Shown: positions 1-60,124 of the stretch, piece by piece
How positions within the stretch are numbered: position 1 is the stretch's first letter
Layout: the number at the start of each line of letters is the position of its first letter
From: Cycloclasticus sp. symbiont of Poecilosclerida sp. N
GTDB taxonomy: Bacteria > Pseudomonadota > Gammaproteobacteria > Methylococcales > Cycloclasticaceae
DNA: 64,000 nucleotides
Direction: 5' to 3'
Assembly: GCA_002101205.1 (NCBI GenBank)
Contig: LWTM01000075.1
Location: 1-64,000 of the forward strand
Position numbers and translations under genes: made by a program
Notes under the pieces: generated by a model
Database searches by the model: none
Told to the model about the DNA's origin: nothing
The model's input: the letters and a program-made list of their open reading frames with translations, nothing else

Positions 1-2726
1 AGGGTGCGAACTGTATCACTACCCCCAGGGATCCGCCATTGGGTAACAAAGTCCGTAAGGGTAACTAGGTTGATGATCTCTATGGACAAGGTGCTGGCGT
101 TATTGGTGCCGAACAAATTTGGTCCGCTGGCAGCCACGTGCAGATTATAAGTGCCAGTTGCTTGCTCAGAGTCTTTTGGGATTAGTGTGGAGCCTCTTAG
201 GATGAACAAGCCATTGTCGGCATCCCCTGCTCCGCGAACCAGTGCGTAGGTAGGGCTCTGTCTGGTTAACGCGGCGTTTTGTGTAGTCAACATGGTGGTG
301 GTCGGCACAATGTACCAAGAACCGAGGTTTTGGATAAAGGCATCGGCGCCGTCGAACATACCGCTCATATTTGTTACCTTGGAAACATCCCAGCCACCGA
401 GGTTCTGATTAAAATCAGCGGCACCGTCGAACATACCGCGCATATTTGTTACCTTGGAAACATCCCAGCCACCGATGTCTTGGCTAAAGGCACTGGCACC
501 ATTGAACATGTTTTGCATAGTCGTTACCTGAGATACACCCCAGCCACCGATGACGCCGTTAAAGGTCGTCGCTCCTCGGAACATAACTTGCATACTGCTT
601 ACGCCAGAAAGGTCTGGTGTGTCGGTTGCACTCATCATCATATTGGAGGCACCATAAAATGCGCCCTGCATACTGACCCAAGAGGCGCTGCCCCATTGCT
701 GTACGTCTGTTAATTTCTCCTTATCCGCGCCATTATTCAAGTTAAAGCGGGTGATGTTGCTTGAGGCTATGACTTTGTAGTCGCCAGCGCTGGCGTAGGT
801 ATGCGTAGGTTTATTGCTTGTGATGTCTTCGGTAGTGCCATCGCCCCAGTTAATGGTGTAACTACCCTCACTGGGGAAGGTGAGGGTGCGAGCTGTATCA
901 CTACCCCCAGGGATCCGCCATTTGGTGACAAAGTTCGCAGAGCTAGTTAGGTTTTCGAAGTTTATGGACAGGCTGCGGGCGTTATTGGTGCCGAACAAAT
1001 CCGCCCCACTGGCTCCCACCCGTAGGTTATAAGTACCAGTTGGTTGATCAGAGTTGATTGGGTTTAGTGTAGAGCCACTTAGGATGAACAAGCCATTGTC
1101 GGCATCCCCTGCTCCGCGAACCAGTGCGTAGATAGGGCTGTGCCTGGCTAACACGGCACTTTGTGTAGCCAACATGGTGGTGGTCGGTACAATATACCAG
1201 TGCCCTAGGTTTTGATTAAAGGCATCGGCACCGTCGAACATACCGCTCATACTTGTTACCTTGGAAACATCCCAACCACCGATGTTCTGATTAAAATCAG
1301 CGGCACCGAAGAACATGTTGAACATATTTGTTACCTTGGAAACATCCCAGCCACCGATGTCTTGGCTAAAGGCACTGGCACCATTGAACATGTTTTTCAT
1401 AGTCGTTACCTGAGACACACCCCAGCCACCGATGACGCCGTTAAAGGTGGTCGCTTCTCGGAACATAGCTTGCATACTGCTTACGCCAGAAAGGTCTGGT
1501 GTGTCGGTTGCACTCATCATCATATTGGAGGCACCATAAAATGCGCCCTGCATATTGACCCAGTTGGCACTGCCCCATTGCTGTACGTCTATTAATTTCT
1601 CTTTATCCGCGCCATTATTCAAGTTAAAACGGGTGATGTTGTTTGAGGCTATGACTTTGTAGTCGCCAGTGGTGGTGTAGGTATGCGTAGGGCTATTGCT
1701 TGTAATGACTTCGGTAGTGCCATCGCCCCAGTTAATGGTGTAGTTGCCCGTGCTGGGGAAGGTGAGGGTGCGATCTGCATTACTACCCGCAGGGATTCGC
1801 CATTTGGTGACAAAGTTCGCAGAGCTAGTTAGGTTTTCAACGTTTATGGATAGGCTGCGGGCGTTATTGGTGCCGAACAAATCCGCCCCGCTGGCGGCCA
1901 CGCGCACGTCATAAGTGCCAAATGCTTGGTTCGTGTCAAGTGGGGTCAGTACGGAATCTCTTAGGCTGAATAATTTATTATGCGTACTTCCCTCTCCAGC
2001 AACCAACGCATAGGTAGGACCCTGTGCGATTAATACGTCGTTTTGTGTGCCCAGCGTAGTGGTGGTCGAGCTAGTGCTGGTGCTCGGTACAATATACCAA
2101 AGACCGAGGTTTTGGTTAAAGGCACCGGCACTAAAGAACATAGCCACCATACTCGTTACTTTAGAAACGTCCCAGCCGCTGATGTTTTGATTAAAACTGG
2201 CGGCAAAGATGAACATGCGATCCATATTTTCTACGTTGGAAACATTCCAGCCGCTGATGTTACCGTTAAAGGCATGCGCGCTTTGAAACATAGCTCGCAT
2301 ACTGCTTACGCCAGTAAGATCCGGCATATCGGTTGCAGTCATCGCCATATTGTTGGCACCAGCAAATGCGTTCTCCATGCTGGTCCAGTTGGCGCTCCCC
2401 CATTGCTGTACGTCTATTAATTTCTCTTTATCCGCGCCATTATTCAAGTTAAAGTGGGTGATGTCGTTTGAGGCTACGACTTGGTAGTCGCCAGCGGTAG
2501 TGTAGGTGTGGCTGATAGTACCGCTTGCGTTATCAGTCGCGCTGCCGTCACCCCAGTTAATGGTGTAACTGCCCACACCTGGGAAGGTGAGGGCGAGATC
2601 CGACGAAGGCATCTTCCATTTGGTAATAAATTCGTGAGGGGTTGCCTGTGAGGTGGTGCTGAATAAAAAACCCGAGACCAGTAACAAAGTAGAAACAATG
2701 AGGCGAAGAGTAATTGTTCCTAGCAT
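1..2726 (-). CDS. BspA-like (DUF285) secreted surface protein, partial at left edge
   Basis: An uninterrupted minus-strand frame of 908 codons starts at 2726 and runs off the window, so the C-terminus is missing. The first 30 or so residues are a Sec signal peptide (hydrophobic stretch followed by SQA). The rest consists of large modules of 275 and 294 residues. Each module has a PKD-like segment containing YTINWGDG, four or five BspA/DUF285 repeats of the type FNxxIGGWDVSKVTxM, and a cadherin-like segment containing GADLFGTNNA. This family is known for bacterial surface and adhesion proteins; a role in attachment here is inference. The DNA repeats are clearly visible: the stretch at 661 recurs at 1543 and, more diverged, at 2368. 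The start is the only Met before the signal peptide. The shine-dalgarno is weak (an A-rich stretch). Confidence 0.85.
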   Translation of the reverse strand, partial: MLGTITLRLIVSTLLLVSGFLFSTTSQATPHEFITKWKMPSSDLALTFPGVGSYTINWGDGSATDNASGTISHTYTTAGDYQVVASNDITHFNLNNGADKEKLIDVQQWGSANWTSMENAFAGANNMAMTATDMPDLTGVSSMRAMFQSAHAFNGNISGWNVSNVENMDRMFIFAASFNQNISGWDVSKVTSMVAMFFSAGAFNQNLGLWYIVPSTSTSSTTTTLGTQNDVLIAQGPTYALVAGEGSTHNKLFSLRDSVLTPLDTNQAFGTYDVRVAASGADLFGTNNARSLSINVENLTSSANFVTKWRIPAGSNADRTLTFPSTGNYTINWGDGTTEVITSNSPTHTYTTTGDYKVIASNNITRFNLNNGADKEKLIDVQQWGSANWVNMQGAFYGASNMMMSATDTPDLSGVSSMQAMFREATTFNGVIGGWGVSQVTTMKNMFNGASAFSQDIGGWDVSKVTNMFNMFFGAADFNQNIGGWDVSKVTSMSGMFDGADAFNQNLGHWYIVPTTTMLATQSAVLARHSPIYALVRGAGDADNGLFILSGSTLNPINSDQPTGTYNLRVGASGADLFGTNNARSLSINFENLTSSANFVTKWRIPGGSDTARTLTFPSEGSYTINWGDGTTEDITSNKPTHTYASAGDYKVIASSNITRFNLNNGADKEKLTDVQQWGSASWVSMQGAFYGASNMMMSATDTPDLSGVSSMQVMFRGATTFNGVIGGWGVSQVTTMQNMFNGASAFSQDIGGWDVSKVTNMRGMFDGAADFNQNLGGWDVSKVTNMSGMFDGADAFIQNLGSWYIVPTTTMLTTQNAALTRQSPTYALVRGAGDADNGLFILRGSTLIPKDSEQATGTYNLHVAASGPNLFGTNNASTLSIEIINLVTLTDFVTQWRIPGGSDTVRT
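661..2428 (-). repeat. Three long tandem coding modules (882 and 825 bp periods)
   Basis: Equivalent sites lie at 661, 1543 and 2368, giving spacings of 882 and 825 bp, both multiples of three. The module nearest the N-terminus is shorter and more diverged. The two inner modules are close enough for long runs of identical bases, for example around 600-660 and 1480-1540. The array is inside the BspA-like gene and may continue beyond the left edge. Confidence 0.85.
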
Positions 2727-51017: not shown

Positions 51018-51669
51018 TTACTTAGAATTTATTCCTTTTGGTGTGTTTTGAAAAAAAACCAATTTATCATCATCACTCCAGCTATTTGAATGACGCAAAA
51101 GTGTGTCTAAGTCTCTAAAAACTGCCCGTTTCTTACAAACTAGCTTTTTAGCTTTTTTCAAATCTATAACACGCAAGTGAACATCATTATTAGGTAAACT
51201 TTTGGAAAATATGTGTTCCAGATAAAAGCAATCATGTTGAAAATTATGTTGATGCATCGCTTGTATCAAAGATGCTATTTTCTTAAAAAGTACCACCTTT
51301 TGTTGTGTGTTCGCAAGTAACTTCCCGCCTATTTGATAGTCACCCGATGACAGCGGCATATAGCCCACTAGTTCTTCCGTCATAATGCAGGCACGCTGAT
51401 GTCCACCCGCTTTCCATTGATTGAAAGCCATCAGATCCAATGATGAAATATCGCGCTCTTGAAACGCCCGAATAACCTCAAACTCTCTCGAAAAAGTAGG
51501 TGTCCCTTGTATTGGGTGACAAAGCGTTCTCGTTACATGACTTTCTTGACGTTTAAGAAATACGCCAACTTTTCCTCCTAGTGGTAACCCTAATTCAATT
51601 CGAGAAACACCACTCCAACCGCCACGACAGTAATTAGGCTCTTCAAACCATTCTGCTTCAAGTGCTCAT
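51018..51669 (-). pseudogene. InaA/WaaP-type LPS kinase with an N-terminal frameshift
   Basis: From about 51659 to 51018 one frame gives a full kinase of the InaA type. It begins AEWFEEPNYCRGGWSGVSRI, has VGVFLKRQESH (ATP-binding Lys) and CHPIQGTPTFSREF, then HNFQHDCFYLEHIF and VRVIDLKKAKK. The natural ATG is at 51669 (MST), but the frame hits TGA at once. Removing one T restores MSTEAEWFEEP. As sequenced, only a shortened protein from 51440 (140 residues) could be made. It is either a recent frameshift or an assembly error. Confidence 0.75.
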
Positions 51670-51764: not shown

Positions 51765-52582
51765 ATGTCGTCTAAAAACCCATTATATCGGTATATATTT
51801 CACGGTACTCGATTAAATATTGCGCCTGAGGCACAACGGCCCTTACAAGCTGTGGGGCTAAATAACGCCAGTCTATGGGGTTCATTTAAAGAAGGCGTGG
51901 TCTTATCTCAGGGAACAACCACTTGTCTAAGAGTACCCCTTCCAAACAGTGACAAATGTATTTACTTTAAGCGTTACCACTATACAAAGAACCTTTGGGA
52001 GTTCTTCCTCCGGCGTAGCAAAGCCGCTAACGAGCTAGTCAATTACCAACGTTTTAAGGCTATAGGCATCCCTACCTTGGATACCTTAGCTTTATACGAA
52101 GAACGTTTTTTGGGACGGCTGAACATCGCCTGCATTGTGACGAAGGAGCTAAAAAACACTACCCGAGTTGACCATTTCTATACTGATGTTCTTCTAAAAA
52201 TGCCCCTGATGAATACCAAACTACTCTCAATCAAATTAAAGAAAAGCTTTTCGAACAAATAAGGCACGCACACCGTTCTGGTGTTTTTCACTTAGATCTA
52301 AAGTGGCGAAATATTTTAATTCAGCAAAAAGACAACGAATACACACCTATTTGGATAGACTGCCCTCGCGGGGTTCAACGGCATTTCTTTAATTACCGAT
52401 TAAAAGTTGCCGATTTAAGCGGCTTAACCCGCACAGCACTTAACTTTTTTTCAACTCAACAACTCTATCGAATGCTGCATTTGTACCTTGGCGAATCCGT
52501 AACTAAGAAGGAGGCAAGGAAATTATTCTTTGAGATAAAAAAACACCTAGAGCGAAGGCCACCTAAAGCCTGGCGCAACTAA
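51765..52582 (+). pseudogene. WaaP-type LPS core kinase with a mid-gene frameshift
   Basis: The first 145 residues from 51765 have the kinase N-lobe (IYFKRYHYTKNLWEFF, NELVNYQRFKAIGIPTLDTL). Near 52196-52200 an A-run has five A where six would keep the frame (LLKNAPDEYQTTL). After that shift the second half reads RHAHRSGVFHLDLKWRNILI (catalytic HLD and N) and WIDCPRG, ending PPKAWRN at 52582. Both halves are well conserved, so the loss is recent or an assembly error. The family phosphorylates inner-core heptose. Confidence 0.75.
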
Positions 52583-52887
52583 CCCTTTATTGGTTTTGAG
52601 CTAAGTTGCTGTCCTTTAGTAACAAAGGTGCCACAGCGAACGGCATGGCACTTAAGCACTGCACTTAAACTTCCACCCGAATAAGCTTTAATAAAATGAT
52701 TGGTATGACTCATGCCTCTAACAAACTTATTTTGGCCATGATGCACTCTAAAACACTTCTTATAACCAAAATCTACAAGTCCGTTATAACCGTGCCTACC
52801 ATCAAAATGAATAACGCTATTGATGTCGGTCTTTCCCCATATAATCCGCTGTAACGTTGATACTGAGCAGTTTGGGGAAATAGACAA
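52579..52887 (-). pseudogene. IS1595-family transposase fragment
   Basis: The 102-residue frame contains STLQRIIWGKTDINSVIHFD, GRHGYNGLVDFGYKKCFRVH and FVRGMSHTNHF, which match the DDE core of IS1595 transposases (SVIHSDGWRGYNGLVD). The INGIE-FW part has been lost and the tail is unrelated. It lies between the frameshifted WaaP gene and the CsgG-type operon and differs from the IS1595 copy at 2982. Confidence 0.65.
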
Positions 52888-52930: not shown

Positions 52931-53671
52931 TTATTGTCCAACATGATTGAGGATTATCGTAGGAAATTCATTACCGTCAACTTCGAGTCCACGTATTTTT
53001 ACAGTTTGAATGATATTATCGGCATTGGTAGTATCCCCATTTATACTATTGATACGCATATCACTGCGGTTGGAAGACCCGTTTTCTACAGACAAGCGAC
53101 CACTCAAATCTAACGTTTGAGTGATGACTCCGCTATAACGATCCGCCTTCATGTAATTAACTGCCTGGATATTACCCGCAGGCGTAGTTGCCGATTTCAT
53201 CAAGCTTACGGACACCCCTGTAACGGCTTGCGTTGCATCGCTAATGATGCCACCTGCCTCCGCATAGTTAAGAGCCTGAACATTGCCGCTACCCGTTACA
53301 TTTTGAGTCAGCTTCGCGCTGCTGAAATCCTCAACGGTTTGTTCTAACTGAATTATTGATGGGGCAGAAGCGAGATTGACGGTCTGCACAGTGGAATTTG
53401 TTGAACCGCTTTGCGTTAAAGTGACACTAGTCGCGGCAAAGGTGGCTTTTTGGGTGACAGAGGATAACGAATCGCCTTGCCCAATTACGTCAACCACTTG
53501 ACGGCTAAGTACGCTACCGTTAACCGCTTGACGGGAAGAGGTTGTATTTTCTTGCTTCATGTCAAATTTCGGAGAGGCTATGCTGACGGTTTGCATAACC
53601 TGCCAGTCGGCAGCAAGTACGCTTTGAGATGCGGGAATTAAAATAAACAATAAAGCAACTATTTTACGCAT
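52931..53671 (-). CDS. Secreted NxQAxN-repeat protein, third paralogue
   Basis: The 246-residue protein has a signal peptide ending SVLA and then ADWQVMQTVSIASPK. It shares with the two larger paralogues the N-terminal cap (ADWxxxQ, then SRQAVNGSVL). Repeat-like units follow: STVQTVNLA, GNVQALNYAEAGG, GNIQAVNYMKADR. It has fewer repeats than the paralogues and no QFGxFAG ending. I infer a minor subunit, nucleator or cap of a secreted fibre. It lies 18 bases after the CsgG-type gene, at the end of the operon. Confidence 0.8.
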   Translation of the reverse strand: MRKIVALLFILIPASQSVLAADWQVMQTVSIASPKFDMKQENTTSSRQAVNGSVLSRQVVDVIGQGDSLSSVTQKATFAATSVTLTQSGSTNSTVQTVNLASAPSIIQLEQTVEDFSSAKLTQNVTGSGNVQALNYAEAGGIISDATQAVTGVSVSLMKSATTPAGNIQAVNYMKADRYSGVITQTLDLSGRLSVENGSSNRSDMRINSINGDTTNADNIIQTVKIRGLEVDGNEFPTIILNHVGQ

Positions 53672-53689: not shown

Positions 53690-55429
53690 TTAAAAAGTTT
53701 GTTTGCTGACGTAACCTTTTTCGCCAGTAATTCTCTCCAGATTTACACTTGTTTCTTTAGCCGTCTCTTTTTTGGTATAAGGGCCTAGCCAGATTTGGGT
53801 GGCTTTTCCTAAGCCGCTTGGCACTATCGAATAGTTCGGCTTGTACCCAGCGGCATTCAGCTGTTTTGACACAGCCGCAACACTTTTGCTGTTGACGAAT
53901 ATACCGACGGCAACTTGCCACTGCGCAGCGTCATCAGCATTGGCTTGCGTTTCCTCTTGCTCGGTCTGCGCAATGCGCGTTGCATCTTCATTTTGTTCAG
54001 GCGCTTGCGTTGCTACTTGCTCGGCCTGCGCAATGCGCGTTGCATCTTCGTTTTGTTCAGGTGCTTGCGTTGCTACTTGCTCGGCTTGCGCAATGCGCGT
54101 TGCATCTTCGTTTTGTTCAGGCGCTTGCGTTGCTGCTTGCTCGGCCTGCGCAATGCGCGTTGCATCTTCGTTTTGTTCAGGCGCTTGCGTTGCTACTTGC
54201 TCGGCCTGCGCAATGCGCGTTGCATCTTCGTTTTGTTCAGGTGCTTGCGTTGCTGCTTGCTCGGCCTGCGCAATGCGCGTTGCATCTTCGTTTTGTTCAG
54301 GTGCTTGCGTTGCTACTTGCTCGGCCTGCGCAATGCGCGTTGCATCTTCGTTTTGTTCGGGTAAAGCCTTTAAAAGAGATGCGGGTGCTGCTACGGATGT
54401 TGGCTCTTGGGTTGGCACTCCTGCTGGCAAGGGCTCAGGTGCTTTCAGTTGCTGTACGGCAACAGCGCTTGGCAGTGATTTTTTAGCTTGTTGATTACGA
54501 GAATCACGACCCAACGCTTGTTTTTCATTGGTATCAAAACAGGGAGAAAAATCCACCATGCTACCAAAAGCATTATCTAAAATCCAAATCGCCCCTGCTT
54601 CCAACAATATTTGTTGGGCGGCGTGCACCGTTTCCACTCTAACATCAGTGTTGGAAAATCCATAGTAAAAATCACTGATAGCAACCCGGAAACGCGCCGT
54701 TTTACTATTGCTATAAAATTTCAAATCAAACCCTTCGGTGCCCACTACGGTATTCGTTTTGGGATCAATAATATTCACCACCAGAGTTATCGATCTTTCC
54801 GATCCCGACTTGCCGCGGTCAATAGAAGCCGATTGCTCCTCTTCAGAGCTACCCCGATAACCAGCATTTTGTCCATAACCTTTTGAACGGATATGTGAGC
54901 TATCGTAACGCGTGAATGCGCCATCAATAATCAATGGCATAACCGTCTTGACTGCCGGCATTCCCTTTGACTGCCGGTTGGCGTTAGTAAAAGCCGTCAA
55001 CATTGACAGGTAGGTGTTTAGATCTTTTGTGGAAGGCAGACCAAAACGGTTTATGCCGATTTGCTCATTATTAGTCTGTTCAAACAAGAGAGGAAATCGA
55101 TCCATTACTAGACCGTAACGCGGTTTGGTATGTGCGGTTAGTATGCTAATCATTTGAACCCGACCGGCATCCGCTAATGGACCATCATAGTCGCTGTTAA
55201 CCGTGCCATCGGCAATATCGCGCACCAGAAAAGCATAGGCGCCTAGATTATTTGCCATGTTTTTCTCCAACTCGCTACCAAGGCATTGCAAGGCTTCGGT
55301 CATGTTTGTTTTGGTTTTGGTGGGGGATGAATCGAAGTCAGTATCAAGGCTAAAGCGCGAGTAACTGGAGCAACTGGACACCGCTAGGGCGACACCAATG
55401 ATAAACAGGCTGGTCAGGAACTTGTTCAT
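53690..55429 (-). CDS. CsgG/HfaB-type export lipoprotein with repeat region and SPOR domain
   Basis: The start at 55429 (MNKFLTSLFIIGVALAVSSC) gives a lipoprotein of 579 residues; an upstream Met would add 52 residues overlapping the previous gene. Residues about 40-320 resemble the CsgG/HfaB curli-secretin family (MTEALQCLGSELEKN, VMPLIIDGAFTRYDSSHI, SITLVVNIIDPKTNTVVGTE). Residues about 357-490 are seven near-identical 20-residue repeats (APEQNEDATRIAQAEQ). Residues about 497-577 are a SPOR domain (WQVAVGIFVNSKSVAAVSKQ), known to bind denuded peptidoglycan. CsgG forms the outer-membrane channel for curli subunits; the SPOR fusion is unusual. Confidence 0.85.
   Translation of the reverse strand: MNKFLTSLFIIGVALAVSSCSSYSRFSLDTDFDSSPTKTKTNMTEALQCLGSELEKNMANNLGAYAFLVRDIADGTVNSDYDGPLADAGRVQMISILTAHTKPRYGLVMDRFPLLFEQTNNEQIGINRFGLPSTKDLNTYLSMLTAFTNANRQSKGMPAVKTVMPLIIDGAFTRYDSSHIRSKGYGQNAGYRGSSEEEQSASIDRGKSGSERSITLVVNIIDPKTNTVVGTEGFDLKFYSNSKTARFRVAISDFYYGFSNTDVRVETVHAAQQILLEAGAIWILDNAFGSMVDFSPCFDTNEKQALGRDSRNQQAKKSLPSAVAVQQLKAPEPLPAGVPTQEPTSVAAPASLLKALPEQNEDATRIAQAEQVATQAPEQNEDATRIAQAEQAATQAPEQNEDATRIAQAEQVATQAPEQNEDATRIAQAEQAATQAPEQNEDATRIAQAEQVATQAPEQNEDATRIAQAEQVATQAPEQNEDATRIAQTEQEETQANADDAAQWQVAVGIFVNSKSVAAVSKQLNAAGYKPNYSIVPSGLGKATQIWLGPYTKKETAKETSVNLERITGEKGYVSKQTF
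53958..54360 (-). repeat. Seven tandem 60-bp coding repeats
   Basis: The unit begins GCTTGCGTTGCTACTTGCTC on the plus strand and encodes 20 residues on the minus strand. Six units (54001-54360) are nearly identical, differing at two or three positions, and the seventh at the 53958 side is diverged. Because the unit has no stop in any frame, all plus-strand frames are also open here; they are shadows. Confidence 0.95.
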
Positions 55430-55433
55430 GAAA

Positions 55434-55910
55434 CTAATTGCAGTTGCGAAAATCGACTTGTTCAATAAATACATAGCTATCTCCCGGTCCTTGGTTAGCA
55501 AAAACCGCACATTTGGGGTTCTTGATATTGTCCACATAAAAAGTCTGGCCTCTGGAATCAATGACTTGAAAGCCACCCTTTCCATAGACTCTGTCGCTGC
55601 TTTCGGCTATAGCGGCACTAGTGCCACTGTCTGGGGTGACCTCGGATACTGCGCGTCGCCGTCCAAGGACACTGCCTACAATCAAATTATCAGTAGATAA
55701 AAAATCTAAACTTTCACCTGCTTCTGAAATTAACTTGGAATTTTGCACTTGACCGTAACTAAAAGACGGTCGTTTTACTGATGGAATGTTGCTCCAGCCA
55801 GGCCTGTATTCTCGAAATTCAAGTTCTTGTGCAACAGAAAACGAAGCATAACCCACCAGCAGCGTGGCAATCAACAAGTTCGTGGTCAATAATTTCGTGT
55901 CTGACAACAT
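55434..55910 (-). CDS. Small secreted protein, possible HfaA- or CsgF-like partner
   Basis: The 158-residue protein has a signal peptide (LLTTNLLIATLLVGYASFSV, then AQ). The mature part contains PSFSYGQVQNSKLISEAGES, VYGKGGFQVIDSRGQTFYVD and a C-terminal Cys pair (PKCAVF ... FRNCN) that could form a disulfide. I do not recognise a named family. It ends four bases before the CsgG-type gene, like HfaA before HfaB in Caulobacter or the accessory factors beside CsgG, so I infer a periplasmic or surface partner of the channel. Confidence 0.8.
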   Translation of the reverse strand: MLSDTKLLTTNLLIATLLVGYASFSVAQELEFREYRPGWSNIPSVKRPSFSYGQVQNSKLISEAGESLDFLSTDNLIVGSVLGRRRAVSEVTPDSGTSAAIAESSDRVYGKGGFQVIDSRGQTFYVDNIKNPKCAVFANQGPGDSYVFIEQVDFRNCN

Positions 55911-55965: not shown

Positions 55966-57153
55966 CTACCGCCGCAGACCGGCAAAATTACCAAACTGAC
56001 CCGATGTGGTAGCTACTCTTTGATCCATGCTAAACGCTCCTGAGGCAGTCAACGATTGACGAGCTTGCGTAGCAGCCGAACCGCCTGTCTTATCTGTTAT
56101 TGCGTTGAGTGCTTGCAGGCTGTCAACCACCCCCCCCGTCTGGGTCATAGTCATAGTTCCTTCGGTGCTGAACACTTGATGGTCTGTTAGATCAGTTATG
56201 GCACCTTGGCCAATATCAATCAAGTTGCCTGCTTGAACCAGTTCACTGACGGTGGGGCCTGCGAAGGGGCTCATGGTAAACACATTATCCCTCGATGAGC
56301 CAGTAAATGTTTGGCTAATTTCAACTATGACTGATCCTGTTCCATCGGTCCTAGCCATATTGCCCGCTTGGATATTGCTAGAGCCGGTGCCAACCAGGTT
56401 AAAAAAGCCTAAACTAGAGTTAAGGAAGGAAAATGTTTGCCTCAAATCAGTAATACTACCAAGAGAATCAACCATATTGCCAGCCTGGACATTACCACTG
56501 GCGGCGTTTCTACTGCTCAACGTAAGCCCATTCGCCCCCGTATGGTCGAAACTTTGAACTAACGTGTCAACAGTCCCGGACGAGTTGGCAGTGGTATCCG
56601 CCAAGTTCAGTGCTTGAACATTGTTAGTGTTCGAGCCTATCTCTTGCCCTAAATTGATTTCATTAGTTATGGTCAATTCTTGTGCTGCATTTACTATATT
56701 CCCAGTTGAACTGGTTACCATGACGTTGCCACCTTGAACATTATTGCCAGCGCCCGCTTTTTGAGTCATCAGAAGTACGCCAGTCATCACGCCTGTTTGC
56801 CTTACTAAGCCAGTAGCACCAGTAGCACCAATATTCCTGGCGGCGATGTGGTTGATCGCTTGACTAGACCCGACTGTCGTTTGACCATCCTGGTTCATGT
56901 CAAGCGCTCTTGCCAATATGGGAGCAGTCTGCGAGCCGGATACTAAGTCATCCTCAGCACCGTTAAGCACAACGCCGTTAATCGCCTGTCTGCTGTTTGA
57001 TACGGCAGTCGTTACGCCTTGGTCAAGACTCAACTGCGTTAGATTGGTAGTGGTTATGTCCGCACTTTGCGTAATCGTCCAATCAGCCGCCAGCGAGTTG
57101 AAAGAGGCGGTTACGAATCCTGCGACAATAATTATTTTCAATAAGTTTTTCAT
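55966..57153 (-). CDS. Secreted NxQAxN-repeat protein, second paralogue
   Basis: The 395-residue protein has a signal peptide (MKNLLKIIIVAGFVTASFNS, LAA) and begins ADWTITQSADI. It then has SRQAINGVVLN and eight or so units of about 35-40 residues centred on N(V/I)QA(L/G)N, each with a second Gln further on (for example NVQALNLADTTANSSG ... LVQSF; NIQAGNMARTDG ... ISQTF). The C-terminus is QFGNFAGLRR. The regular Gln/Asn ladder resembles curlin repeats and suggests a beta-solenoid or amyloid-like fold; this is inference. It lies 56 bases before the small secreted gene. Confidence 0.85.
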   Translation of the reverse strand: MKNLLKIIIVAGFVTASFNSLAADWTITQSADITTTNLTQLSLDQGVTTAVSNSRQAINGVVLNGAEDDLVSGSQTAPILARALDMNQDGQTTVGSSQAINHIAARNIGATGATGLVRQTGVMTGVLLMTQKAGAGNNVQGGNVMVTSSTGNIVNAAQELTITNEINLGQEIGSNTNNVQALNLADTTANSSGTVDTLVQSFDHTGANGLTLSSRNAASGNVQAGNMVDSLGSITDLRQTFSFLNSSLGFFNLVGTGSSNIQAGNMARTDGTGSVIVEISQTFTGSSRDNVFTMSPFAGPTVSELVQAGNLIDIGQGAITDLTDHQVFSTEGTMTMTQTGGVVDSLQALNAITDKTGGSAATQARQSLTASGAFSMDQRVATTSGQFGNFAGLRR

Positions 57154-57227: not shown

Positions 57228-58657
57228 TTACTTCAATTCACCTGCAAAACTACCAAACTGACGCGAGCTAGTCATTGCATTTTGCGACATCGCAAACGGT
57301 CCTGTGGTAGAAATCGTCTGGTGAGCTTGCGTAGCAAGCGTACCGTTCACCTTATCTACTATTGCGTTGAGTGTTTGCAAGTTGTTAGTACCGCTTCCCA
57401 GTTGGGTCATAGTGATACTGCCTACTCCGGTGGCGAACACTTGATGAGGGCCTGATGTATCGGTTAGGGCACCTGTGCCAAGAGCAATCAAGTTGCCAGA
57501 TTGAACCAGGTTATAGCCTGACCACTTTTGGTTAAAATCATTCACAGTCCCTGAGCCAGTAAATGTTTGGGTGATTGCCTCTATGACTGATGCTGGCCAT
57601 CGGTCCTAGCCATATTGCCCGCTTGAATATTGGTGTTGCCGCCCCCAGTCATGTCAAAGTCTACTAGCGCGCTGTTGGTTGCGGTAAAGGTTTGCTCCAA
57701 ATCAGTAATGCTACCGAGAGTATCAACCAGATTAGCCGCCTGGACATTGGTCGTGCTACCAGCGTCACTGGTGAAAGTAGTGCTGCCCGCCGCATTGGTG
57801 AATGTTTGAACTACCGCACCAACAGTGCCCGCATTGGCAGTGGTATCTACTTGGTTCAGTGCTTGAACATTGTCATTACTACCCACTATCATATTCTGCG
57901 TTAAACTGATTTCAACACTTGCAGTAAACGCTTGTGAAGCCGCTGCTACGCGGGTCCCACTGTCACTGGTTACCGCGACGTTGCCGCCTTGTCTGTTATC
58001 ACCACCGGTCGCCGCTTGACTAAAAGTGGTGCTGCCGGTCACCGATGTAGCCTGTTCAAGTTTGTTTGCATCATCGACACCTATGGTCTGTCCGAAAGCA
58101 TAGTTCACCGCCTGCACGTTCTCTGCTGAGACTACGGCATTTTGAATCAATGATAACGTGCCGCTCTCGGTGATAACTTGATTCAAATTATTAATGGTGC
58201 CCGTACCAGATGCCTTACCTATGTTCAGCGCTTGCACGTTCCCAACTCCGCCGCCACTACCGACCTCTTGAGTAAGGGTTGTCGCTGTTGACTCACTGGT
58301 TACTGTTTGCGTTACCGTAGTACCACCAGAACCTGTGCCAACATTCTGGGCTTCAAGGTAGTTGATTGCTTGACTAGACCCGTCCACATTCGGCCCTTGT
58401 GTCAGATTCAAACTGGTTATTGAGGTTAAGGTCGCGAGCTGCGATGAACCACTTGCCAGGCTATCCTCATCAGTATTAAGCGCAATACCGTTAATCGCTT
58501 GTTCGCTATTGCTTACATTAGTGGCGTTACCCTGTTTAAGATCTGGCGCAGCGGTCTCTATAGTCGCGGTTTGAGTAACCGTCCAATCAGCCGCTAACGC
58601 GCCGAAAGAAACGGTTGCGAATATCGCAATAAAAATTAGTTTGAACGTGCTTTTCAT
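57228..58657 (-). pseudogene. Secreted NxQAxN-repeat protein, first paralogue, one-base frameshift
   Basis: The start at 58657 (MKSTFKLIFIAIFATVSFGA) has AAGGGG seven bases upstream and a signal peptide, then ADWTVTQTATIET and SEQAINGIALN. About eight units follow (NVQALNIGKASG, NVQAVNYAFG, NVQALNQVD, NVQAANLVD, NIQAGNMARTDG). Near 57588-57600 one base is missing compared with the paralogue (DGTGSVI there), giving a stop at 57581. The other frame resumes with IEAITQTFTGSG and ends RQFGSFAGELK at 57228. Joined length would be about 475 residues. It is the first gene of the operon and looks like the main subunit. Confidence 0.8.
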
Positions 58658-58747
58658 ATCGAGCCCCTTTGTTTTAGTTAGCATTTCACAGCCTAGAAAT
58701 TTATGATTGAGTGTTTGTTAATTCAAGCAATTTAGTCATTGTGGAGC

Positions 58748-58844: not shown

Positions 58845-59968
58845 TGTCTGAGTTCAGTACCTGTGAGACAAGTCAGGCGACCTGCATGCGTTGTTGATAA
58901 TAACGCATGGGTATTTCTAATCTCACACCATCAGGCGGTCGGTAATGGTGCCGCCACCCGCTACGCTTGTATTAGTCGTACGGGTATTGTTCGAGCTTCT
59001 GATTCACTGAGGCTATCGTTAATGCGCCCTCGTAAACCGGATAAAACTCATAACGAGTCGTACCTTTGGCGCGCTCCACACACCCATTCCATTTTGGCTT
59101 TCTTGGCGGCAAGACAAATAGAGATATGTTCAACGCTTCGCAGGCGCGCTCAAATTTATCCCTAAACTGACTGCCGCCATCCATCTGAATGGAGATCAAG
59201 TCGAAGGGTAGTTGCTCCATCAGGTATTCAAGCAAGCGTTTGGCATTGCGGCTAATGCGCATAATGGTTGTCCCTGTCACACAGTTGGTGGCTTTAAACT
59301 CTTTGAGGACAAAGCCTTCTGGAAAGCTCACGCTCATGTGACCAACCTATATTAACTGTCTAGGCTGCTTGGCCTTCATGCCATAGCACCAGCGTTTGGC
59401 GTGACGCTTGAATTGACGCTGGCGTTTGGGCTTATCCCCTCCCGTAGTAAAAAGCCGCTGGGGGAACGCGACCACGCCCAATCAATCGTTTAAGGATTCG
59501 TCCAACGGTGCTGACGCTGAGTGTAAAACCATCGCCGCGATGCAGCCCCTTCCATATCTTGCGTTTACCCCGACAAAGGGTAGCACTTGCGCAAATGAAA
59601 AGCGGCTTGTTGCTTTGTCCGTTGTTGTTAGCGGGTTGTCCTAGGGCGACAACTTTGCGCTTCCAGGCCTAACCTACCCACTTGGCGGTAACGCTTTAGC
59701 CAGCGGTAGTAGGTGCCTTTTGACCAGCGGGTGGCTTGTAGGCGAAGAACCGGCGAGCAATCTTCTGATTTTAACTGCTCGTGAGTTCAAGCTTCTTTAT
59801 CCGAACAATAGCTTCTGCGCCCACCGTGTCGGCAACAGATCAACTTCTGTATGATTTCATTCACAGGTTGTTGATCTGCATCGGCTTGTCTCCTGTGTTT
59901 AGTTAACAACTCACAGGCTACCCAAGTTTTACATCTCAAAAAGTCTCACTTCTATCTGAACCCAGACA
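58845..59968 (-). mobile_element. IS481-family element, degraded
   Basis: It is bounded by TGTCTGAGTTCAG ... GTGAGAC at 58845 and the inverse TGTCTGGGTTCAG ... GTGAGAC at 59943-59968, an imperfect inverted repeat of 26 bases, giving 1124 bases overall. The C-terminal half of the DDE transposase is open from 59337 (LISIQMDGGSQFRDKFERAC, LPPRKPKWNGCVERAKGTTR). The N-terminal half (59340-59900) is broken into several frames with stops. A detached copy of its right end lies at 17411. Confidence 0.8.
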
Positions 59969-59975
59969 CCCATGT

Positions 59976-60124
59976 TTAACTTGTCATGGCTCTAAGTCTT
60001 TTTACGCTTTCTTGTTTCAATTTGCCCATTAACGCGAACTTTGCTTCACCGCCACTCGTCACAAGACTTTCAACTTTGAGCGGCGCAGCAATCTCTTTGT
60101 TCAACTTCACTTCAAGCATTAAAA
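59976..60124 (-). pseudogene. S4-domain RNA-binding protein (YbcJ-like) remnant
   Basis: On the minus strand the reading LEVKLNKEIAAPLKVESLVT, SGGEAK, then after a deletion VRVNGQIETRKRKK matches the small S4 RNA-binding proteins of the YbcJ type (LKxxGLVxSGGEAKxxIxxGxVxVNGExETRKRKK). About seven residues between the two parts are missing and the frame is shifted. Confidence 0.5.

Follow-up and report, generated by a model that had tools for sequence, protein, structure and literature searches.

A single gene in the 64,000 nt stretch analyzed here (contig LWTM01000075.1 of the Cycloclasticus sp. symbiont of Poecilosclerida sp. N, hereafter the window) encodes a lipoprotein of 579 aa in which a CsgG-like domain is followed by a long repetitive linker and a SPOR-type domain. 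It lies in an operon with genes for curlin-like repeat proteins that share a motif at their mature N-terminus, and an ortholog from the same genus ends in a different wall-type domain. We propose, with a probability of around 0.6, that the protein is an outer-membrane CsgG-like export pore for tagged repeat proteins, tethered to peptidoglycan by the linker and the terminal domain. The relevant features of the window are as follows:

52491: colinearity with two other genomes of the genus breaks off here, close to a truncated WaaP-type kinase gene
52931..53671, minus strand: curlin-like repeat protein of 246 aa with DWQVMQ at its mature N-terminus (from the sequence)
53690..55429, minus strand: lipoprotein of 579 aa combining a CsgG-like domain, a repeat linker and a SPOR-type domain (translation; single place in its own genome)
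53693..53920, minus strand: SPOR-type domain, DedD-like, residues 504–579 (profiles, model, PDB match)
53942..54361, minus strand: seven 20-residue repeats, consensus PEQNEDATRIAQAEQVATQA, residues 357–496 (TRF, unit alignment)
54362..54493, minus strand: Pro/Ala-rich start of the linker, residues 313–356 (translation)
54494..55372, minus strand: predicted CsgG-like domain, residues 20–312 (AlphaFold2 model, Foldseek, VIA)
55370..55429, minus strand: signal peptide and lipobox AVSSC, with Cys20 and Ser at +2 (from the sequence)
55434..55910, minus strand: small exported partner of 158 aa, with a conserved end (VDNI..P.CA ... VDF..C) and separated from the channel gene by 4 bases
55966..57153, minus strand: curlin-like repeat protein of 395 aa with DWTITQ at its mature N-terminus and seven copies of the repeat motif (from the sequence)
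57228..58684, minus strand: second large repeat-protein gene, interrupted (frames 57581–58684 and 57228–57545), mature N-terminus DWTVTQ (from the sequence)
58972..59337, minus strand: integrase/transposase remnant beside the operon (Pfam rve_3, E 8.7e-4)

The frame of the channel gene is continuous and intact over its 579 codons. A longer alternative frame, beginning at 55585, overlaps the gene upstream, whereas translation from 55429 yields a proper lipoprotein signal. The residue at +2 is not Asp, which points to probable sorting of the lipoprotein to the outer membrane. An assembly join, which had been named as a possible origin of the fusion, is unlikely: besides the continuous frame, the gene has a single place in its genome, and an independent genome shows the same layout with another linker and another end domain. 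A search of the PDB with the whole protein gave nothing beyond a chance coiled-coil match, and a scan for promoters and terminators gave no reliable signal.

The sequence-only reading had assigned the C-terminus to the SPOR family and had made this depend on a profile match in the last 80 residues. Searched with the whole protein, the Pfam SPOR profile (PF05036) gave E 0.059 and 14.2 bits; with the last 86 residues alone it gave E 8.9e-4 and 20.0 bits, just under the gathering cut-off of 21, and the channel protein was not among the SPOR matches of its own genome at E ≤ 1e-3. Independent checks agree with a SPOR-type domain, and the similarity is beyond chance: a custom HMM built from four other SPOR domains scored the tail at 23.9 bits, whereas the highest score among 2000 shuffled tails was 10.9, and the top sequence match of the tail in the PDB was the SPOR domain of DedD, gapless across 74 aa (E 0.015). 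The whole-protein search also picked up a DedD-type protein ending in a SPOR domain in another genome, G026 (named DedD by eye). A single-sequence AlphaFold2 model of the tail (pLDDT 78.6) has the beta-alpha-beta-beta-alpha-beta order of elements of SPOR domains, and in a Foldseek search DedD came third, its identity of 28% exceeding that of every other entry among the 50 rows listed; however, generic ferredoxin-like proteins (PII) scored level with or above DedD. Because this fold is common to PII and other proteins, it is not diagnostic and we did not use it as proof.

The SPOR core pattern is intact in the tail, which keeps GPY as well as the GxF Phe. With columns matched by eye, the position of RlpA Q270 is occupied by Ala in the window (WQVAVGIF), vs. 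Gln in all four aligned SPOR domains, and that of RlpA R309 by Gln; the two clear SPOR proteins of the same genome also retain the Q270-type Gln. According to Alcorlo et al. (PMC6895207), SPOR domains of known structure have a single highly conserved contact to the glycan, Q270 in RlpA. We take this Gln as a preference of the SPOR family, not as a strict rule.

The relationship of the N-terminal domain to CsgG is seen in the predicted fold but not in sequence profiles. The CsgG family (PF03783) was absent from the Pfam scan of the 579 aa protein at E ≤ 1, from six N-domains at E ≤ 10, and from the whole genome; alignment of the N-domain with three true CsgG proteins using hhalign gave a probability of 4.4, and neither NCBIfam nor an hmmsearch of the PDB revealed a link to CsgG. 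The AlphaFold2 model of the domain, built from a two-sequence input over 301 residues, is weak (mean pLDDT 50.2, pTM 0.56). Even so, the top 12 Foldseek rows were all CsgG (E 3.0e-6 to 1.9e-4), the best being 4uv2 (E 3.0e-6, probability 1.00). VIA alignments were also led by a CsgG structure, 7brm_A (Z 9.8, rmsd 7.1, 159 aligned residues), with 4uv2_P at Z 9.1 (rmsd 4.9, 158 aligned); a DUF330 protein (Z 9.2) and FlgT (Z 9.0) are so close that the VIA Z score alone does not single out CsgG. We provisionally call the N-domain CsgG-like by fold and place it outside the Pfam CsgG family, in keeping with a low-confidence model. Thus, of the architecture read from the sequence, the fusion, the lipid anchor and a reach back to peptidoglycan are supported, whereas the designation as a CsgG-type channel stands by fold and finds no counterpart in sequence profiles.

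The linker spans residues 313–503 (191 residues) and has a net charge of −23. Tandem repeats were confirmed by TRF (period 60 bp, 6.9 copies, 96% match, score 755), with seven units beginning every 20 residues at positions 358, 378 and so on to 478, although the array covers about 140 residues instead of the 130 first described and is near-perfect, not perfect. The copies differ by a few silent and V/A changes, and a 21-base piece of the unit occurs seven times in the window, vs. 0.01 expected; this near-identity of the DNA suggests a recent expansion of the array. An alpha-helix rises about 1.5 Å per residue. The linker would thus be far longer than the distance from the outer membrane to the wall, even with its 140 repeat residues in helical form (around 210 Å, using general constants).

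The order of genes in the window is interrupted large repeat protein, large repeat protein, small protein, channel and repeat protein, with gaps of only 4 and 18 bases on either side of the channel gene; the interrupted gene adjoins its intact tandem paralog. The succession of one large repeat protein, small protein, channel and repeat protein is found in G016, the genome of the Cycloclasticus sp. symbiont of Poecilosclerida sp. M (contig LWTN01000236.1), and in three genomes of genus g192 (G564, G659, and G682), so that the operon occurs in five genomes, those of the window and of four of the six others bearing the channel. In these five operons, all the repeat proteins (11/11) start with [DE]Wx[VI]xQ right after the signal peptide, a motif absent from the counterpart repeat proteins of the two remaining genomes, G296 and G088. 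CsgG recognizes the curli subunit CsgA through N-terminal residues Val3, Gln5, and Tyr6, within the first six residues (PMC6957492); by analogy, [DE]Wx[VI]xQ is a fair candidate for an export tag of the repeat proteins. Within the large repeat proteins, [NQS]x[QR][AG]xN is present in 7–8 copies in five of the seven proteins or pieces (shuffled means, 0.10–0.24), in three copies in the protein from G016 and in none in a fragment of 105 aa. The repeat proteins of the window matched no Pfam family above cut-off and no curlin-repeat model at E ≤ 1. Similarly, neither the small partner nor other neighbors matched CsgF in Pfam at E ≤ 1, and the small partner agrees with CsgF in position and size only. 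Whole-genome searches with the window sequence found this partner in four of the seven operon genomes, and it was placed in G016, G088, and G296 by gene order and alignment. CsgE was not found in six of the seven operon genomes, that of the window among them; the seventh, G296, has it beside a separate, true CsgG.

The channel domain is rare: it is present in 4/311 genomes of the order of Cycloclasticus and in 2/18 of the genus (both counts including the genome of the window), in 3/369 across the sampled class (this genome, G564, and G659), in 1/398 across the sampled phylum (this genome), in 3/18 of genus g192 and in 3/21 of the family of G564. One of 52 pattern-matched genome stretches contained a relative, and none was found in the plasmids or viral contigs searched. 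The ortholog from G016 (L002) has an N-domain 55% identical to that of the window, its own PEAA linker, with no sequence in common with the EQNEDATRIAQ linker of the window, and an SH3_3 domain at its end (E 2.9e-5, 24.6 bits, cut-off 27). The presence of two different wall-type domains at the same place of two orthologs points to a pore attached to the cell wall. The channels of G564, G659, and G682, whose N-domains are 63–66% identical to that of the window, have only short tails, with no Pfam domain in the two that were scanned (the third was inspected by reading), and the distant channels of G296 and G088 have no tail. A wall domain is therefore not needed for the core function. Downstream of the tailless channels there is a separate repeat lipoprotein or coiled-coil protein (L009 6986–7654 and L010 5506–6018); the former, on the plus strand and directly after the channel gene, is a lipoprotein with tandem repeats of about 30 residues.

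The identity of 63–66% to a genus from another family and order, vs. 55% to G016, can be set against the 74% identity between the HtpG proteins of the window and G016. Additionally, the GC content of the operon is 0.45–0.50 vs. 0.38–0.45 in the flanking kilobases (59000–59999 excepted). Colinearity with two other genomes of the genus, G015 and G008, ends at around 52491–52695, adjacent to the truncated WaaP-type kinase gene, which is longer in G015; htpG is about 10 kb away in the window, but in G015 and G008 over 1 Mb separates it from the kinase-side genes. Next to the operon there is an integrase remnant in the window and a fuller integrase in G016. The operon was likely acquired through transfer. 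Two WaaP-type kinase genes near this point (51018–51440, minus strand, and 51765–52262, plus strand) are shorter than their counterparts in G015 (L096). At the far end of the window, positions 3–2726 (minus strand) encode a large exported protein that is cut off by the window edge; its 75-bp repeats read WDVSKVTNMxxMF and resemble those of BspA/DUF285 by eye, and it may be a surface or host-contact protein.

The sequence-only reading contrasted the fusion with CsgG proteins ending soon after the channel domain, but this is not a rule. Among the best-scoring 59 loci of the CsgG-domain matches listed, 15 had tails of at least 40 residues after the domain. A Pfam scan of all 15, covering the search for the same fusion elsewhere, gave no SPOR and no SH3 domain, two PG_binding_1 domains and six FlgT_C matches, one of them above the family cut-off. 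The fusion itself was thus not found in these tails, whereas other wall-binding ends were: two CsgG-family lipoproteins, L070 (1354–2358, plus strand) and L073 (1339–2331, plus strand), terminate in PG_binding_1 (E 2.9e-16 and 8.3e-18, respectively). As in the window, a CsgG-type domain is followed in them by a wall-binding domain, although they show true CsgG profile matches, a short linker and PG_binding_1 instead of SPOR or SH3. Also, in three true CsgG proteins from the same order the repeat tails are long, charged or rich in Pro/Ala, and free of Pfam domains (L018 1357–3048, plus strand; L019 1247–2653, plus strand; L015 913–2292, minus strand). The idea of a wall-bound CsgG-family lipoprotein is hence not unique; what is new is a proposed CsgG-like pore whose wall arm ends in SPOR or SH3, together with a four-part operon sharing a candidate export tag. 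No CsgG–SPOR fusion was found in the parts of the literature searched.

The curli channel CsgG (type VIII secretion, PF03783) is, like the window protein, a lipoprotein, and it is the best structural match; in both systems the operon combines the channel gene with genes for curlin-like repeat proteins and, adjacent to the channel, for a small exported protein. Unlike curli, the window system has no Pfam CsgG match, no CsgE in its genome, no match of the partner to CsgF or of the repeats to curlin-repeat models (E ≤ 1), and a long tail ending in SPOR. C-terminal SPOR domains on long linkers are found in RlpA and DedD, the latter having the nearest SPOR domain, but the SPOR domains aligned here retain the conserved Gln, and we know of no channel-type domain in them. 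Outer-membrane pores or adhesins are fastened to the wall by binding domains in PilQ, with AMIN domains, and in intimin, with LysM; they share the wall fastening with the window protein, while the pore folds and binding domains are unrelated. To our knowledge, no wall domain occurs in HfaB, the CsgG-like protein of the Caulobacter holdfast anchor HfaA-HfaB-HfaD. This protein, compared here by description, resembles that of the window in serving surface proteins, two anchor proteins depending on it for their surface placement (PMC6707917). No model named Hfa appeared among the NCBIfam matches at E ≤ 1, if NCBIfam has such models.

From the predicted fold and the neighboring genes, we propose that the lipoprotein would form a ring-shaped, CsgG-like pore in the outer membrane, which would export the curlin-like repeat proteins of its own operon through their N-terminal tag. 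The C-terminus of CsgG is on the periplasmic side, and so the linker and SPOR domain would hang into the periplasm. From the periplasmic face of the ring, each subunit would extend its long acidic linker to peptidoglycan, where the terminal domain (SPOR in the window, SH3 in G016) would bind the wall. A ring of about nine subunits, as in CsgG, would make about nine wall contacts, which would immobilize the pore and enable it to carry the load of a surface fiber or adhesin. Against this proposal count the weak fold model and the lack of a CsgG profile, a SPOR score under cut-off with the conserved Gln lost, relatives without wall domain, the missing CsgE, and the absence of the tag in G296 and G088. 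We hold more tentatively, at somewhat short of even odds, that this is a CsgG-like export system whose pore doubles as a load-bearing tether joining the outer membrane to peptidoglycan, each subunit contributing one arm with an exchangeable binding end (SPOR or SH3 here, PG_binding_1 in other CsgG-family lipoproteins), and that it exports repeat proteins with the new tag.

Three other explanations were considered. The sequence-only reading suggested a position at septa or poles: SPOR would place the channel at septa or new poles by way of denuded glycans, and an adhesin would be laid down at the pole, as is the HfaB anchor in Caulobacter. Indeed, SPOR domains bind denuded glycans, which are enriched at the septum (PMC6895207), HfaA, HfaB, and HfaD are located at the stalk tip (PMC6707917), and the tail keeps the GxF Phe and the GPY motif. 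However, the positions of Q270 and R309 are changed in it, even though both clear SPOR proteins of this genome retain the Gln; the ortholog from G016 has SH3 in place of SPOR, and three close relatives do without a wall domain. The loss of the conserved Gln and the SH3 domain of the same-genus ortholog favor general wall tethering, and we consider septal or polar placement possible but rather unlikely. The strongest argument is that two orthologs end in different wall-type domains, which would make wall binding, and not septal placement, the selected property.

Alternatively, the acidic linker might be what matters, as a periplasmic gate or holdase that keeps repeat proteins unfolded and replaces CsgE, the terminal domain being secondary. 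This would agree with the absence of CsgE from six of the seven operon genomes, the charge of the linker, the separate repeat or coiled-coil proteins encoded after tailless channels, and the repeat tails of L015, L018, and L019; yet the linkers of the window and G016 have no common sequence and lead to two unrelated wall-type domains, and relatives with 63–66% identity manage with a short tail, making a gate or holdase quite improbable. The tail could also be a decayed or neutral addition to an operon transferred beside an insertion element, with one fiber gene broken and the SPOR ligand residue lost. The broken repeat gene, the integrase remnant, the location at a rearrangement breakpoint with raised GC and the change of Gln to Ala all fit this explanation and, with one of its two large repeat-protein genes interrupted, the system may be decaying in this genome. 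Nonetheless, neither the channel frame nor the SPOR core pattern is damaged, the small protein, the final repeat protein and the remaining large repeat protein are likewise intact, and G016 keeps a different wall domain at the same place, so we deem a neutral or decayed tail very improbable.

Export pores for amyloid-like fibers and adhesins must hold under pull, and the literature consulted says little on how the envelope keeps hold of them. A pore equipped with wall arms, together with a sister protein carrying another wall domain on the same arm, makes pore anchoring testable, and the shared N-terminal tag is a direct handle on the cargo of this pore. Since its neighbor in the genus, G016, is a sponge symbiont, the fiber may be a host-contact structure.
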